Source: Acinetobacter sp. C26M (GTDB lineage Bacteria > Pseudomonadota > Gammaproteobacteria > Pseudomonadales > Moraxellaceae). From it: a DNA stretch of 64,000 nucleotides. Both the position numbers and the translations under genes were made by a program. Below, piece by piece: positions 9,178 through 58,300 of the stretch. Below the pieces are notes generated by a model. It was not told the origin of the DNA, ran no database searches, and saw nothing but the letters and a program-made list of their open reading frames with translations. The stretch is from positions 930,001 through 994,000 of the forward strand of contig NZ_CP098478.1 of assembly GCF_023702675.1 (NCBI RefSeq), in the 5' to 3' direction. The number at the start of each line of letters is the position of its first letter. Position 1 is the stretch's first letter.

Positions 9178-10209
9178 TTATAAATATTTTTCGATGGTCG
9201 CTAAAGTTTGAGGACTCTCATAAAACGGTTTTAAGATGAGGGTAATGATTGGTTCAAGTACATCATGTTCATCTAAAGCCACCACGACTTTAGGGTAGAA
9301 ACGTACCGCTTCGTTAAGTAGATCTGTTTCTTCTATACCTATCGCAGCAAAAACATCTTCCAGACTTTCATCTTTATAGAAGTCATAAAACACTTTTACA
9401 CCGTATAAGATTAAATCTTGTATGAACGTGGACTGGCGTAATTCTTTCCAGTACTCATAGATCATGACAAAGAACTCTTCTACATCGAGCGGTGTAACTT
9501 GTTTGGTGTATTCTGATAAAGGCTGGGCTTTGTTGTCGTCCCAGATATTGCGGGCAAGACTCTCAAGGTCATCATTTGAAAGCAAGCTGAGATCAACCAG
9601 CTGTTCTTGAATGAATCGACCAATACTTTCTTCAATCTTTTGTTCAATACGCTGCTGTTGGCGATGCGAAAAGCTTTTTAGTTTTTGCTGCCATTCATAT
9701 TTACTTTCAGAGATACGTTCTTCATCTGACTGAGTAAATAATTTGGGTAATTTATTCTGTAAAGTCGTGGTCGCAATATATTGGCACAACTGCTGAATCG
9801 AAGGACTGTCTTTTAAAAATTGATTTAAATAATGGCGAATATTATCCAGTTCTAAAAATTTGGATAACCACATTTCAAATTGGTGGTCTGAAAATACGTC
9901 CTGTAATTGTGCAGATGACTGTAAGGAAAACACATGCAGTCTTTGCGCAATTTCCCCAATAAATTCCAATAAGCCTGCCCCGAGCTGCATTTCAAAGGCA
10001 TAGCGTTTTACCACAGCCTGAATTTGTTCTAATTCAACTACTTCCTTGAGCTGAATATTGGGTGCATGTTGGAGAAAAAGCTGAATAAATTGTTGGAAGA
10101 AATCAGCAGAAAGTTGTGTGGTGAGTTGGTTTTTATAAAATGCAACTTGCTCAAGCATAAGTGCTTGAGCAAGTAATTGTGACTTTTCAGAAACAATTTT
10201 TTCAGTCAT
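9178..10209 (-). CDS. Conserved-looking protein of unknown function, coupled to nadE
   Basis: I do not recognise this 343-residue protein. It is soluble, with no signal peptide or membrane segment, and appears almost wholly helical. It is rich in Gln, Leu and Glu, with a charged stretch (KLKSFSHRQQQRIEQKIEESI) that may form a coiled coil. An upstream in-frame start would run deep into nadE. The ATG at 10209 (MTEKIVSEK) overlaps the nadE stop by 8 nt, a spacing typical of translational coupling. Context therefore suggests co-expression with NAD synthesis, but no function should be inferred from that alone. Confidence 0.75.
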   Translation of the reverse strand: MTEKIVSEKSQLLAQALMLEQVAFYKNQLTTQLSADFFQQFIQLFLQHAPNIQLKEVVELEQIQAVVKRYAFEMQLGAGLLEFIGEIAQRLHVFSLQSSAQLQDVFSDHQFEMWLSKFLELDNIRHYLNQFLKDSPSIQQLCQYIATTTLQNKLPKLFTQSDEERISESKYEWQQKLKSFSHRQQQRIEQKIEESIGRFIQEQLVDLSLLSNDDLESLARNIWDDNKAQPLSEYTKQVTPLDVEEFFVMIYEYWKELRQSTFIQDLILYGVKVFYDFYKDESLEDVFAAIGIEETDLLNEAVRFYPKVVVALDEHDVLEPIITLILKPFYESPQTLATIEKYL

Positions 10210-11827
10210 TCGCGGTCCATCCGTTGACGATCGGGTAGCGTCGTTCACGACTGAAGGCACGTGAACTAATACGTGGTCCAATCGCGCCCTGACGACGCTT
10301 GTATTCATTACGATCAACCAAACGAATCACTTTCTCTACCACTTCGGCTTCATAGCCTTTGCCGATAATGTCCGCTTGGCTGAGATCTTCTTCAATATAA
10401 GCATATAAGATGGCATCAAGTACATCATAAGCAGGTAATGAATCTTGGTCTTTTTGATCAGGGCGAAGTTCTGCTGATGGTGGACGAGTAATGACACGCT
10501 CAGGAATCACTGGTGTTTCATCTAGCGTGTTACGGTATTTCGCTAACTCAAACACGATTGTTTTATACACGTCTTTGAGGACTGAGAAGCCACCAACCAT
10601 GTCGCCATACAAGGTGCAATATCCGACAGAAATCTCTGACTTGTTGCCTGTAGAGAGTACAAGATTACCAAATTTATTGGATAAACCCATCAGTAACGTA
10701 CCACGAGTACGCGCCTGTAAGTTTTCTTCAGTTGCGTCTGCAGGGGTATTACCAAAGAATGGGAATAAGGTCTGCATAAAACTGTTTACGATTGGATGAA
10801 TCTCAGCAATACCAAAGGTAACACCCATACGACGTGCTTGTTCAGTTGCATCCTCTACACTCATTTGTGAGGTGTAGGTATATGGCATCATCACAGCCTG
10901 TACTTTATCTGCGCCAATTGCATCAACTGCAATTGCCATTGTTAATGCGGAATCGATTCCACCAGATAAACCAAGAATTACACCTGGGAAGCCAGAGCGT
11001 TGCACATAGTCACGTGTTGCCATTACGAGTGCTTGATAAATCTCTGCAAAAGTTTCTAATGCAGGAATCGCATCAGTTGTTTTAAACTGCTTTTGTTCAG
11101 CATCATATTCAACGTAACAAAGTGCTTCTTGAAAGCTTGGTACTTGCAGTGCAAGTTGACCGTTTTTATTGCTGACAAAGCTTGAACCATCAAAAATAAG
11201 GTCATCTTGTCCACCAACTTGGTTGGCATAGACAACGTTTAGATTCAATTGTTTTGCAAGTTCGTTGAGCGTTTGAATGCGGTGTTGCGGTTTACCCACT
11301 TCATATGGTGAAGCATTTAAAACCAGAACCGTTTCAACATTCAACTGACTGAGTTGTTTAACGGTATTCAGTGACCAAACATCTTCACAAATCAAGACGC
11401 CGAATTTGTGACCTAGATATTCGAAAACAAGATGTTGATGACCTTCTTGGAAGTAGCGTTTTTCATCGAACACACCATAATTTGGCAGGTTTTGTTTATT
11501 ATAAACACCTAAAACCTGCCCGTCTTTCATGACAGCAGCAGAGTTATAGCGATGACCATCTTCAGTTTGGTGCACAAAACCGAATACCATCAAGATGTCT
11601 TTTACTTCGCTTAACTGGGCAAACGCTTTTTGAGTGCGTTTTTGTAGGTTTGGGCGGAGTAATAGGTCTTCAGCTGGGTAACCGATCGTAGATAGTTCAG
11701 GGAAGATGATCAAATCAGCCTGTTGTTGTTTCGCTAAATTTGCTTGCTCAACCATCTTTTGAGTATTTGCATCAATATTGCCAATGTGCGGAGAGAATTG
11801 AGCAAGGGCAACTTTAAAATTTTTCAT
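10202..11827 (-). CDS. nadE: Glutamine-dependent NAD+ synthetase
   Basis: Makes NAD+ from nicotinic acid adenine dinucleotide, ATP and an amide nitrogen taken from glutamine. The 541-residue protein is a two-domain form. The N-terminal CN-hydrolase glutaminase domain has Glu in FPELSTIGYPAEDLL, Lys in KQNLPNYGVFDEKRYF and Cys in LICEDVW. The C-terminal NAD synthase domain has the ATP-pyrophosphatase P-loop LSGGIDSAL. This means it can use glutamine without a separate glutaminase. It starts at the ATG at 11827, next to a 581-bp intergenic stretch, and is followed by an overlapping gene of unknown function. Confidence 0.96.
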   Translation of the reverse strand: MKNFKVALAQFSPHIGNIDANTQKMVEQANLAKQQQADLIIFPELSTIGYPAEDLLLRPNLQKRTQKAFAQLSEVKDILMVFGFVHQTEDGHRYNSAAVMKDGQVLGVYNKQNLPNYGVFDEKRYFQEGHQHLVFEYLGHKFGVLICEDVWSLNTVKQLSQLNVETVLVLNASPYEVGKPQHRIQTLNELAKQLNLNVVYANQVGGQDDLIFDGSSFVSNKNGQLALQVPSFQEALCYVEYDAEQKQFKTTDAIPALETFAEIYQALVMATRDYVQRSGFPGVILGLSGGIDSALTMAIAVDAIGADKVQAVMMPYTYTSQMSVEDATEQARRMGVTFGIAEIHPIVNSFMQTLFPFFGNTPADATEENLQARTRGTLLMGLSNKFGNLVLSTGNKSEISVGYCTLYGDMVGGFSVLKDVYKTIVFELAKYRNTLDETPVIPERVITRPPSAELRPDQKDQDSLPAYDVLDAILYAYIEEDLSQADIIGKGYEAEVVEKVIRLVDRNEYKRRQGAIGPRISSRAFSRERRYPIVNGWTAND

Positions 11828-12302
11828 TCAAACCTAATCCTAAGTCTTAACAAGTTATGACATACAAGTTTTTGATTTATATGGGTATAGTTATTAAAAA
11901 CAAGTGTATGTCATGGCGCCAAACATTTTATATCTTAAAGAAAAATGACAAGTTTACTAATATATACTAAATGCACATTTTTCTGCGTAAAAATAACAAG
12001 TTTTTCTGTATAAAACAGCAACATTTCTCAATGTTTGCGTGATTATGGTGCATGAACATGAATAAATTGAATAGAGTCATCTAAAGTTTTTTTCATGTCA
12101 TTTTTGCATCATGCTATTACACCCGAGTGACAATATCGACAAACAATAAAAAAATTTAGAAAAAAGAATAACTTTGGGCTTCTATTTTAAATTTTAAAAA
12201 TAGTTAAAACAGTTGTACTTTTAAAAAATATAAGCTTATTCAATGTCTTGAATTTATATCGTGTATTTTTTATACCGTTCGTCGGGAATGTCTTTGCGAC
12301 AC
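11828..12302. other. Long A+T-rich intergenic region upstream of nadE
   Basis: I see no gene here: stops are frequent in all frames and no tRNA or terminator stands out. It is strongly A+T-rich, with several A or T runs (12148-12175 and 12226-12275). It presumably carries the nadE promoter on its left side and upstream control sequences for the small-gene cluster on its right side. Confidence 0.5.
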
Positions 12303-12358
12303 TTGAGTGTACATTTGTGCACTGCTATTATCCCAATTAATGTGAACGGTTGTGCACT
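12303..12358 (+). promoter_or_regulatory. Promoter flanked by TTGTGCACT direct repeats, for the small membrane-protein cluster
   Basis: TTGAGT (12303-12308), a 17-bp spacer and TATTAT (12326-12331) preceded by TGC form an extended -10 promoter. The 9-mer TTGTGCACT occurs twice, 35 bp apart: at 12315-12323, inside the promoter spacer, and at 12350-12358, just past the expected transcription start. Each holds the palindrome GTGCAC. Sites in these positions would suit a repressor; that role is inference. Confidence 0.6.
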
Positions 12359-12408
12359 TTATTATTCATCAAGTGTACCCAAGCACGCAAAATGAAGAGG
12401 TAACAACA

Positions 12409-12507
12409 ATGTCAGTTTTATTATTTCCAGTAATTGCTTTTGGTTTGGCTGTAGTCGTTGGTCGTGTAGGTACAGTAATGTTCCAAGAAAAAGATCAACA
12501 ACTTTAA
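12409..12507 (+). CDS. Small single-pass membrane protein A (32 residues)
   Basis: A 32-codon gene, too short for usual gene finders. The product is one hydrophobic helix (LLFPVIAFGLAVVVG), a conserved VGRVGTVMF junction and a charged polar tail (QEKDQQL). A Shine-Dalgarno AAGAGG (12395-12400) lies 8 nt before the ATG. It is 28/32 identical to the product at 12551-12649. The two coding sequences differ by several silent changes, such as TTG/TTA, GTC/GTT, GGT/GGA and TTC/TTT, which supports real translation. It is first in a three-gene cluster. I do not recognise the family. It could be a regulator or subunit of a membrane complex, but nothing in the sequence says which. Confidence 0.75.
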   Translation: MSVLLFPVIAFGLAVVVGRVGTVMFQEKDQQL

Positions 12508-12550
12508 TTGATCATTAAATTTTGATTCATTTTTGATGAGGTAGTGCACC

Positions 12551-12649
12551 ATGTCAGTTTTATTATTTCCAGTAATTGCTTTTGGTTTAGCTGTAGTTGT
12601 TGGTCGTATTGGAACAGTAATGTTTCGCGAACAAGATCAGCAAGCCTAA
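12551..12649 (+). CDS. Small single-pass membrane protein B (32 residues)
   Basis: Paralogue of the protein at 12409-12507: identical through residue 19, with changes V20I, Q26R, K28Q and L32A. The Shine-Dalgarno GATGAGG (12535-12541) is 9 nt upstream. It has the same layout, a helix of about 18 residues ending in VGRIGT followed by a short polar tail. The 43-bp gap to the first gene has no terminator. Function unknown. Confidence 0.75.
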   Translation: MSVLLFPVIAFGLAVVVGRIGTVMFREQDQQA

Positions 12650-12689
12650 GCTAATTATTAAATAGTCATTTTAAATAAAGAGGTACAAA

Positions 12690-12854
12690 ATGATGACTTC
12701 AACTATTTTATTGCCTGTAATCGCCTTGGCTTTAGCTATTGGTGTTGGGCGTATTGGTACCATTGTTAAGGATGCGATGCGTGTAGATTTTACGACTGAT
12801 ATGGATGATAGTCATGAATTTAAAACTGAAACTCAAAAAAGCACGGCTGCATAA
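12690..12854 (+). CDS. Small single-pass membrane protein C (54 residues)
   Basis: A longer relative of the two preceding proteins. It keeps the core LPVIALALAIGVGRIGTI and adds a hydrophilic tail of about 28 residues rich in Asp, Thr and Lys. AAAGAGGT (12677-12684) precedes ATG 12690; a second ATG at 12693 is equally possible. The cluster ends at a strong terminator 20-odd bp downstream, so the three genes form one transcription unit. The shared motif is (F/L)PVIA(F/L)xLAxxVGR(V/I)GT. No family is recognised. Confidence 0.72.
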   Translation: MMTSTILLPVIALALAIGVGRIGTIVKDAMRVDFTTDMDDSHEFKTETQKSTAA

Positions 12855-12876
12855 TTTTTCTTGCATACTGCTTAAT

Positions 12877-12920
12877 TAAAAAGCCCTGTAGTTGAAACTT
12901 ACAGGGCTTTTTATTTTTCT
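12877..12920. terminator. Bidirectional terminator after the small-gene cluster
   Basis: AAAAAGCCCTGTA / TTACAGGGCTTTTT stem with a 7-nt loop, A-rich on the left and T-rich on the right. It serves the small-gene cluster and the convergent gene that ends at 12911. Confidence 0.88.
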
Positions 12921-13435
12921 AGAATGATGTTGGGGATTTTATTAAAGTAGATATCTCGTGCAATATCGCCTTGTTGCTCGATGTTATAATTAGAGAAAGC
13001 TTTGTTCTTGATAAATTGATATTGATACGGATTGTATCGCTTAAGACTTAGGTAATAGCCAGCCTGAAGTATTGCACCTTTGACAATGACATTGATTCCT
13101 TGCTGAAACTGTAGGATATGCGCCAGCTCATGAATAAAGATTCCTTGCAAGGATAGTGAACATTTTGAATAGTCAGGACTGAAATATTTCTGATGTACAA
13201 ATAAATTGCCGTTTGGTGCCATAAAAATATTGGCAGGCTGCCAAGGTAGATAGGGGATATTAAAAACTTTTATTTGCGCATAATCGATAAGATCGCCAAA
13301 GACAGGACGCGCCATTTCGATTTCAGCAGACGTCAAACCACGATATTGAAATTGATTCATTTTGAGGTAAAAGATTAAGCTGGAAGTAAATCGCGCTTTT
13401 AATCTTGGTATAGCGTGCTGAAATGGTTTGTTCAT
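12911..13435 (-). CDS. HExxH metallopeptidase-like protein, uncharacterised
   Basis: A 174-residue protein with the zinc-peptidase motif HELAH (in GIFIHELAHILQFQQG). The following context, IVKGAILQAGYY and a C-terminal ARDIYFNKIP, resembles small Vgr-related or DUF4157-like peptidase domains. A downstream third zinc ligand cannot be fixed by eye. The ATG at 13435 gives a basic N-terminal extension; the Met at residue 26 (MNQFQYRGLT) is an alternative start. No signal peptide is clear. It stands alone between the small-gene cluster and divergent secreted proteins. Peptidase activity is inference from the motif. Confidence 0.7.
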   Translation of the reverse strand: MNKPFQHAIPRLKARFTSSLIFYLKMNQFQYRGLTSAEIEMARPVFGDLIDYAQIKVFNIPYLPWQPANIFMAPNGNLFVHQKYFSPDYSKCSLSLQGIFIHELAHILQFQQGINVIVKGAILQAGYYLSLKRYNPYQYQFIKNKAFSNYNIEQQGDIARDIYFNKIPNIILEK

Positions 13436-55381: not shown

Positions 55382-58300
55382 TTATCCTACCACTTCAATC
55401 CGACTCGAACCTGACCCAATTGGCTGTACTTGAATTTGTACAGGAATACGCTCATGCATTTCCTGAATATGCGAGATCAACACCACTTTACGCCCTTGGC
55501 TTTGTAATTGATCCAGCGCATTCATCACCATATGCAACGAAGAAGCATCCAGCGTCCCAAAGCCCTCATCAATAAATAGTGATTCGATTTTCATTGAACC
55601 AGAGGCCATATTGGCAATTGCCAAGGAAATCGCAAGAGCAGTGAGGAAGGACTCACCACCAGAAAGAGAAGCCACTGAACGAGTTTCTCCATCCATATCA
55701 TGGTCAATGATGGCTAGGCTGAGGGAATTATCCAAACGTTTTAAGGTATAACGCTGTGACAACATGCTGAGTTGTTGGTTGGCATATTCAAGCAGAATAT
55801 CCAGATTATATTGCTGGGCTAAATCACGGAAATCTTTACCTTTAGAATCACCAATCAAACTGGAAATTTTATTCCAACGGTGTTCCTGTTGCTGAATCTG
55901 CTGGATTTGATCTGCAAATTGCTTTTGCTTGGCAACATTTTGCTGATGTAGTTCCAGTTTCAGTTTGAATTGATCACGTTGTTCAGCTTGCTGCTGTAAT
56001 TTTTCATGATTGAGATGGATGTGCTCAAGCAACTGGTTGTGTTCGATGGGTGGCTGTTGTTGCTGATGTGTCTGTAATTGCTGTTGCAACGTTTTCAATG
56101 CAGAGGCGGCCTCATTGAGCAAGCGTTCTGCATGCTGTAGCGATGTTCGAATGTGCTGTTCTTGCTCAGCTCGAATAGCAAGTAAATCAGCTAATAGATG
56201 TTCTTCAAATTCAGGATGCTGGTCTAACCAGGCTCGAATTTCAGTCTTGGATTGGACAAGGGTAGCTTGTTGCTGCTGCTGTTGGGCTTTGAGCTGTTCC
56301 AGTTCATTTTTCTGCTGTTCAAAGCTTTGACGAGCCTGTTCAAAATGCTGCTTGATCTGCTGGTATTGATTTTGGAGTTGCTGACGCTGTTGATCGTGTT
56401 GGTTTAACCATTCATTGGCTTTCAGTTCAGTTAAACCTGTCATTGCCACAATCAATTGATGCGCTGATTCTGTATTTTGTTTACCTTTGAGTTCGGTGTC
56501 TTTGAGTTGCTGATTAAACTCGGTATGTTGAGTGATCAAGCTGGTTAAATTGGACTTTAATAGATTCAGTTGCTGTTCAAGCTGCTGCTGTTGTTTGCTG
56601 AGTCTTTCAGCTTGTTCAAGCTGTTGAACACGCTGCTGCAAATGTTGTGCGAGCTGTTGAGCAGAGCTTAGCGTTTGCTGCTGCCATAGGTTTTGCTCAT
56701 CAGTCGTTAGACAATCTACAACATGCTGAATCTGTTGTTGTAATTGCTGTACGCTTTCGAGTTGATAGCGGATATTTTGAATCGTTTGAGTCAGGTGATA
56801 GTGATCTTTATTGGCCTGATGTAGTTGCTGTAACTCAATTTCAATCTGCTGTTTGAATTGGGCTGTCTCATTGATGTATTGCTGTTGAACTGTAGTGATT
56901 TCAGCATGCGACTGAGTTAAATCTAGCTGGATCTCGAACTGTGCTGCATGTTTGACTAATTCCTGATGTTGCAGCTTGAATTTGTCATCGACTTGTTGCA
57001 TAGCAGATTGCAATTGCGTCAGTTCAGTACGAATCTGGGTAAATTGCTGCTGTGCGTTTTGCCAAAGCTGAAAGCACTGTTGCTCTTGTTGAATGGCCTG
57101 TTGCTCTTGCTGTTGTTGCAGCTCATACAGGGCTTTGGAGAGCTGACTGGCATCATCACGATAGGGGTGTTCAGTGCTGCCACAGACCAGACAGGCTTCA
57201 CCGTGTTTGAGCTCAGCACGGAGATGTTCAATATTTTCAGCATGTAATAAACGTTGTTGTTGCAACATTTGCTGCAATTTCTCCCGTTCAGTTTTGGCTG
57301 ACTGGAATTCGACTTCGCTGGTTTGCAGTTGTTGTTCAAGTTGCTGATGTTGTTGCTGTGCACTACTGAGCTTATGGCTTAGTTCATCATGTTCTTTTTT
57401 CAGTTCAAAATAATGCTGTAACTTCTGTTGAATCAGGTCCAGTTGATTCAGTCGGGCTTGTTGCTGTTCTCTGAGTTTTTGTTTCTGCTCAAGTTGGCTT
57501 TCGATCTGTTGTGGTGTGCCAAATTTTTGAATGAGCTCATTCAATACGATCTGATCTTGTTCAAGCTTGGACTGCGCTTGTTGAATCGAACCTAAATTCT
57601 GTTCGACTTTTTGGTATTGCTGAATAAATTGCTGCAGTTGTTGAAGGTATGCATTGAGCCCTTTATCTAAAGTGGAGAATTGTGCACTCTGTTGCAGTTG
57701 TTCAGAACAGCTTTGTTGTTGTATGGATAGGTTGCTGCGACTTTGTTCAAATTGCTGCTGTTGCTCAAGCAATGGTTGTTGTTGCGCTTCATTTTGGTTT
57801 AAGCGAACTTTGGTTTTCTTATATTCATCGGCAATGTATTCACGTTCCTGTACACATTTACGCACTTGAGTGAGTTCATGCTGATGGTTTTGTTCAAAGC
57901 TTTGAAATTGATCTAAGGCCGTTTCCGCTTGGGTATAAGCCGCTTTTTCTTGCTCAAATTGGGTGCTTAAAGCGGTAAAGTTCTGCTGCTTGTGTTGAAT
58001 CTGAGGTTCAAGCTGTTGCAGTGCTTTTTCCAATTGTTGCTGTTGGAACACAATCGGACGAATACCTGAAAAGGTTTCGAGTTGGTTGAGTCGATTGCGA
58101 TCTGCTGCCAAAGCCTGATGTGCTTGAATTTGAATGTCATGCTGTTGCTGTTTCAGTGTGATTTCAGTTTCGAGTTTTTGTCGCTGTTCAAACCATTGTT
58201 GCTGTTGATTAAGCTGAACTTTGTCGGCTTCCAACTGTTGAACCTGTTGTTGTATCTGCTGAAATTGAGTCTGTAATTCGGCAACTTCTTCATCTGAACG

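Follow-up and report, generated by a model that had tools for sequence, protein, structure and literature searches.

Judged from sequence, locus A of Acinetobacter sp. C26M is an operon of tandem paralogous hydrophobic microproteins that are under selection at the protein level. It is also predicted to belong to the FabR/DesT (unsaturated fatty acid) regulon. The microprotein family to which its products belong is real and conserved, and it comes with a strong regulatory lead. The locus was found within a window of 64,000 nucleotides (G000:C1:930001-994000, G000 being the genome of the window). On one side it has a nadE-like gene, named by inspection, on the minus strand (10202-11827), and on the other the gene for a 174-aa protein, also on the minus strand (12911-13435), which carries a HELAH motif and has no Pfam match.

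The operon comprises three genes on the plus strand. Genes 1 (12409-12507) and 2 (12551-12649) each encode 32 aa, MSVLLFPVIAFGLAVVVGRVGTVMFQEKDQQL and MSVLLFPVIAFGLAVVVGRIGTVMFREQDQQA respectively, and were recognized from the frame list and by homology search; gene 3 (12690-12854), recognized from the frame list and by profile and protein searches, encodes 54 aa and ends in an acidic tail. A Shine-Dalgarno sequence is present on the plus strand before each of them: AGAGGT at 12396-12401, TGAGGT at 12537-12542, and AGAGGT at 12679-12684. The initial annotation had proposed these frames of 32, 32, and 54 codons, and they are indeed intact, each led by its Shine-Dalgarno sequence, and recur in relatives. 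The single promoter and single terminator that it had proposed were likewise located. A sigma-70-type promoter, TTGAGT-17-TATTAT with a TG before the -10, was identified by the promoter scan at 12303-12331 of the plus strand; its -35 hexamer TTGAGT (12303-12308) is conserved and is followed, after a 17-nt spacer, by the extended -10 (TGC)TATTAT at 12326-12331. The intrinsic terminator, a 15-pair stem followed by a T-run, is at 12877-12913 on the same strand. The scan lists no promoter-like site on the plus strand between 12331 and 12826. Since the locus has 6 promoter-like sites altogether, compared with 3.5 +/- 2.1 in shuffles, it is on conservation that the promoter call is based.

Between proteins 1 and 2, 28/32 residues are identical. 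Their genes differ in 9 codons, of which 5 (codons 13, 16, 21, 25, and 30) have silent changes only, as had been noted from the first inspection (28/32 identity and at least five silent changes), and dS is about 0.43 with a dN of about 0.08. Purifying selection, which the initial annotation had claimed at the level of the protein, is visible both in this comparison and in pN/pS. Over the 22-codon core, pN/pS is 0.27 for 45 distinct A1-type sequences, 0.24 for 24 of A3-type, and 0.35 for 39 of B-type, these ratios being rough because pS is near 0.5. The motif filter fixes six core columns, therefore the ratios were calculated again without these six codons, giving 0.35, 0.31, and 0.43 for A1-, A3-, and B-type, and invariance was rechecked in an alignment built from HMM hits. 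There, too, the core A, G, R, G, and T are invariant, with the second core A replaced by V in 2/32 rows. Among the 111 distinct core segments, stops are present in frame 0 in none, in frame +1 in 109, and in frame +2 in 23, with frame 0 being open partly by selection because the segments were picked by motif.

Could the RNA be the functional product, with the frames incidental? The transcript is short and has a strong terminator, and frame +2 is also open in 88/111 core segments, which speaks in favour. However, silent changes outnumber replacements, and genes 1 and 2 match at 86/99 positions as against 28/47 aligned columns for the spacers that follow them, which makes a purely RNA-level function extremely improbable.

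The family is defined by the core A-x3-A-x3-G-R-x-G-T within a hydrophobic run, often with Pro. In a search with protein 2, 24/119 genus genomes gave a strong A-type match (best E<=1e-6), and 81/119 gave a match at E<=0.1 to locus A or to locus B, a second chromosomal location described below. This is the conservation in related genomes on which the initial annotation had made its proposal depend. Nor are the frames disrupted there, for the matches listed include only one internal stop, a TAG by which the fourth copy of genome G065 merely loses its end and is left with 30 aa. By profile search, 57/199 Moraxellaceae genomes match at E<=0.05, in 4/16 genera, and at least 16 genus genomes have no match. 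The accepted genera are Acinetobacter and one containing Alkanindiges and a Moraxellaceae MAG. The matches (E 1.5e-4 to 0.035) in the two other genera, g8 and g14, are doubtful: a frame scan found no small frame of the microprotein kind in the g8 stretch, and the g14 matches fall within frames of some 320 residues.

When proteins were searched with an alignment of 12 members, 324 matched at E<=0.01, and the best 120 of the 324 are hypothetical proteins from Acinetobacter, a Moraxellaceae bacterium, or a Pseudomonadota MAG. The suggestion that gene finders miss these genes is therefore right only in part, relatives of the 54-aa frame being present at NCBI as 'hypothetical protein'. For 21 members searched, Pfam and NCBIfam gave nothing beyond noise (the best E values, 0.031 and 0.038, were for unrelated families and came from 1 or 2 of the 21 each), no PDB chain was better than E 0.66, and PADLOC likewise gave noise only for the family. 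In Rfam no family reached its gathering score over 11800-13000, and the sub-threshold matches each overlap the terminator. A description of the family was not found in the literature searched, the coverage of which mostly excludes subscription papers. As neither a family match nor a description was found, the locus stands as the candidate undescribed small-protein system that it had been suggested to be. A phage origin was considered and rejected, viral contigs having given 13 pattern stretches with 0 confirmed, as was a plasmid origin, the 54-aa query having no relative in plasmids.

Locus A consists of 2-5 tandem paralogues, of which the final one usually has an acidic tail. Named carriers include A. 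dispersus, A. higginsii, A. colistiniresistens, A. proteolyticus, A. haemolyticus, A. gyllenbergii, A. junii, A. vivianii, A. halotolerans, A. courvalinii, A. beijerinckii, A. venetianus, A. tjernbergiae, and A. modestus, which we take to be the haemolytic clade. One carrier, A. venetianus RAG-1 (L173), is a laboratory strain. In G065 (L007:1360-1875) the 32-aa gene is present as four units of about 141 bp; the encoded peptide is the same in three of them, which points to a recent change in copy number. This variation, the second locus, and the operator described next had not been seen in the initial annotation.

The palindrome AGTGTACATTTGTGCACT, at 12306-12323 on the plus strand (G000:C1:942306-942323), overlaps the end of the -35 and continues through the spacer, sitting between the -35 and -10 of the locus-A promoter. 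It is a predicted FabR/DesT-type operator. With no more than 1 mismatch it is present in 25/25 distinct A-type upstreams, 16 exact and 9 with 1 mismatch. These upstreams are 24 from locus A and one from G031; repeat copies of the same genomes were excluded, as was G079, whose last 100 bases are those of G110. In 40 shuffles of each upstream the mean best was 5.3-5.8 mismatches and the minimum 3. The operator starts 101-111 bp before the first ATG, or 67 bp in MAG G030 (1 mismatch), and it was also present in the locus-A upstreams of five further species (L159, L161, L163, L170, and L172).

In G000, AGTGNACANNTGTNCACT has 3 exact sites and 3 with 1 mismatch, with 0 for the reversed control. Of the exact sites, one is in the locus-A promoter, one in the gap that follows an xthA-like gene, and one between the reductase-desaturase operon and the repressor gene; those with one mismatch are a second site at the desaturase locus, one at a gene for a 260-aa protein, and one at 57671-57688 of the window, which lies in a repetitive stretch and may be due to chance. 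Exact AGTGNACANNTGTNCACT is found in 76/119 genus genomes, against 0/119 for the reversed control. When 30 exact sites, one per genome, were placed, all were at four conserved places: 8 at des, 3 at locus A, 14 in the xthA-arsC gap, and 5 at relatives of the 260-aa gene (u260). G031 carries a lone A-type gene, located between rph- and argA-like genes. Two exact operators accompany this gene, one of them again in the promoter spacer, and the desaturase/repressor locus is on another contig with two one-mismatch sites. This is a second, separate association of the microprotein family with the operator.

Conservation of the operator at the A-type promoters and at the desaturase/repressor locus is the basis for the predicted regulon membership. 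At the des locus a reductase gene is followed by an FA_desaturase gene, which is the desC-desB arrangement (named after Pseudomonas usage, where DesB is the desaturase), and a TetR repressor gene is divergent. Two operators are between the reductase and repressor genes, G000:C1:3861744, exact, and 3861782, with 1 mismatch. The best NCBIfam match of the TetR product is FabR NF008402 (E 6e-40, 137 bits, below the cut-off of 151). A repressor match at E<=1e-20 is present in 117/119 genus genomes, although for 11 of them the best match has an identity of no more than 34-42% and G030, a locus-A carrier 65% complete, reaches just 9.3e-22. The 21 most similar repressors (93-100% identity) are all from A-type genomes, 21 of the 24; of the three exceptions, two are incomplete genomes, G110 (75%) and G030, which has a weak match only, and the third is G031 (63%). 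Among the 117 genomes that match the repressor, about 93 lack an A-type gene. Most genomes listed also have a second TetR match, a paralogue of 30-34% identity in the listed rows, which might bind the operator instead.

In gammaproteobacteria the FabR/DesT regulon includes fabA-fabB, desCB, and desA. The system described here shares with it a palindromic GTACA-NN-TGT operator and a divergent desaturase/repressor locus, and the GTACA-NN-TGT core is common to the locus-A operator and the E. coli FabR motif AGCGTACACGTGTTCGCT given in the available part of PMC4273635. Divergent des/repressor loci are known (PMC4273635, available part), and FabR regulons with desABC occur in several gammaproteobacterial lineages (PMC5343134, available part). 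DesT represses desCB, and its binding is weakened by saturated and strengthened by unsaturated acyl-CoA, according to the portion of PMC10634369 at hand. The accessible portion of PMC11448061 describes for A. baumannii a desT homologue and a reductase beside desB, as well as a shift in unsaturated fatty acids between 18 and 37 C. Unlike the known regulon members, a microprotein operon has no mention in the available parts of PMC5343134, PMC10634369, and PMC4273635, nor is a microprotein mentioned in these or in that of PMC11448061.

Each of the three peptides has a maximum Kyte-Doolittle 19-residue mean of 2.2-2.3, so that of the one helix plus polar tail originally proposed the hydrophobic stretch is clear, and the helix and tail remain an architecture suggested by the residues. 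Known type I toxins (the Ldr/Fst/Ibs kind) are likewise tiny hydrophobic tandem paralogues, and the locus could on this account encode self-toxic peptides silenced by antisense or trans RNA. Minus-strand promoter-like sites are present inside the operon (12557-12529 and 12815-12787) and upstream (12356-12327), but they are unremarkable given that the total at the locus, 6 against 3.5 +/- 2.1, is at shuffle level. Neither Rfam, without a family at gathering score in 11800-13000, nor the promoter scan supports an antisense RNA. Furthermore, unlike a toxin promoter, that of locus A has a lipid-type operator, which fits regulated production, and plasmids (54-aa query) and viral contigs provided no match. 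A toxin family is thus quite improbable.

Locus B (G000:C1:448339-448670) has 1-2 members and is between SdhE-/CptA-like genes and a lipoprotein-like gene, all named by inspection, with a rhomboid-family gene next. In Alkanindiges-type genomes locus B is near an acyl-CoA-dehydrogenase-like gene, as in Acinetobacter, and it is therefore apparently older than locus A. The FabR/DesT-type operator is present in 0/36 distinct locus-B upstreams, where the best site has 4-7 mismatches, close to what shuffles give. Control of locus B by FabR was accordingly rejected; lipid control is not family-wide and the basic function of the family need not be linked to lipids. Another dyad, AATTGTYNRACAATT, is in the locus-B upstream, with 2 exact sites in G000 and 7 at no more than 1 mismatch against 2 for the reversed control, and is possibly the site of another regulator. 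As AATTGTTTGACAATT it lies at L031:4631-4645 (G000:C1:448130-448144), and similar dyads are seen in other locus-B upstreams. Basic tails in some locus-B members suggest a C-in topology; the tails at locus A, being neutral to acidic, do not support one.

CydX, KdpF, AcrZ, and MgtS are small single-span membrane proteins that, like the microproteins, are about 30-50 aa long with one hydrophobic segment and a short polar tail. The microproteins might be small subunits with a structural role in a respiratory or transport complex, with FabR control of locus A merely matching membrane composition. The single hydrophobic stretch, the small-xxx-small face, the conserved Arg, and the SdhE- and CptA-like neighbours of locus B are consistent with such a role. 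Yet, unlike those proteins, the microproteins match no curated family (Pfam and NCBIfam within noise in 21 members, PDB at E 0.66 at best), and they have tandem arrays of 2 to 5 at locus A and the A-x3-A-x3-GRxGT core, with at least 16 genus genomes having no match. We regard a structural subunit as unlikely. More generally, the microproteins may be regulators or subunits of larger complexes, as the initial annotation had suggested.

The explanation that we favour, and consider on the whole rather likely, is that locus A is derepressed together with the desaturase and that its single-helix microproteins serve as accessories of membrane enzymes. Following published FabR/DesT biology, the repressor with unsaturated acyl-CoA would sit on the operator between the -35 and -10 and block the operon. 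A shortage of unsaturated acyl-CoA, or an abundance of the saturated kind, would make the repressor leave the operator, and the microproteins would be made together with the desaturase. By its hydropathy each peptide would form one helix in the inner membrane, with the small-residue face of A-x3-A-x3-G and the R-x-G-T packing against another copy or a larger membrane partner. Our guess is that they assist or modulate membrane enzymes whose work is needed when the lipid phase is too ordered, and as a partner the aerobic desaturase system is the first candidate. The microproteins share the DNA switch in their promoter with the fatty-acid desaturase genes and so probably help the cell to adjust its membrane when unsaturated lipids are short. 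The lack of the operator at locus B and of A-type genes in most genomes with the repressor count against a tight link to lipids or the desaturase. That this Moraxellaceae family entered the FabR/DesT lipid-sensing regulon twice, at separate chromosomal places, as small helical cofactors or brakes of the aerobic acyl desaturase, is unlikely. If true, it would represent a protein-level layer of homeoviscous control, for which we know of no bacterial example. The analysis places an unnamed microprotein family in a physiological setting that can be tested, that of membrane unsaturation. It also suggests that the genus has a compact FabR/DesT-type regulon, one of whose four places holds a conserved GGA-rich RNA candidate.

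A second conserved element, the box TACCGTTCGTCGGGAA, is at 12273-12288 on the plus strand, 14 bp before the -35. With no more than 1 mismatch to TACCRTTYRTCGG it is present in 24/24 distinct locus-A upstreams; it was not found upstream of the A-type gene of G031. The 13-mer TACCGTTCGTCGG has 1 match in G000 at up to 1 mismatch, against 4 for the reversed control, so the case for the box rests on conservation, not on rarity. Its conservation implies a further input besides the lipid-type operator. The sequence TACCRTTYRTCGGGWA is in 32/118 genomes, 17 of them locus-A carriers, and the reversed control in 7. In three genomes without locus A (L193, L195, and L196) it is in the promoter of a surface-protein gene, presumably FilA-like, and in a fourth (L198) it is inside a large gene. 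At L079, one of the locus-B upstreams, the box TACCATTCGTCGGG is 157 bp before the core of the locus-B gene, which hints at an input common to loci A and B.

At the two other places the operator precedes different products. In the xthA-arsC gap there is a conserved RNA candidate on the minus strand (L088, about 2780-2950; G000:C1, about 145,680-145,850), with many GGA motifs (AGGAUGA, GGGAUAGGAC, and UAGGA) and a terminator. It follows the FabR-type operator in 14/14 aligned sequences, the alignment being of G000 and 13 of 14 loci, with L118 left out. We take it to resemble a CsrA/RsmA-sponge RNA. Its only Rfam match up to E 1 is at E 0.62, and the main text of an A. baumannii sRNA paper (PMC5320573) contains none of CsrA, Rsm, or xth. 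The 260-aa protein, which has no Pfam or NCBIfam match, is encoded at L090:3201-3983 (G000:C1, about 3,741,800-3,742,580). Its gene follows a FabR-type operator, with 1 mismatch in G000, and adjoins the gene for a 964-aa symporter-like sensor kinase.
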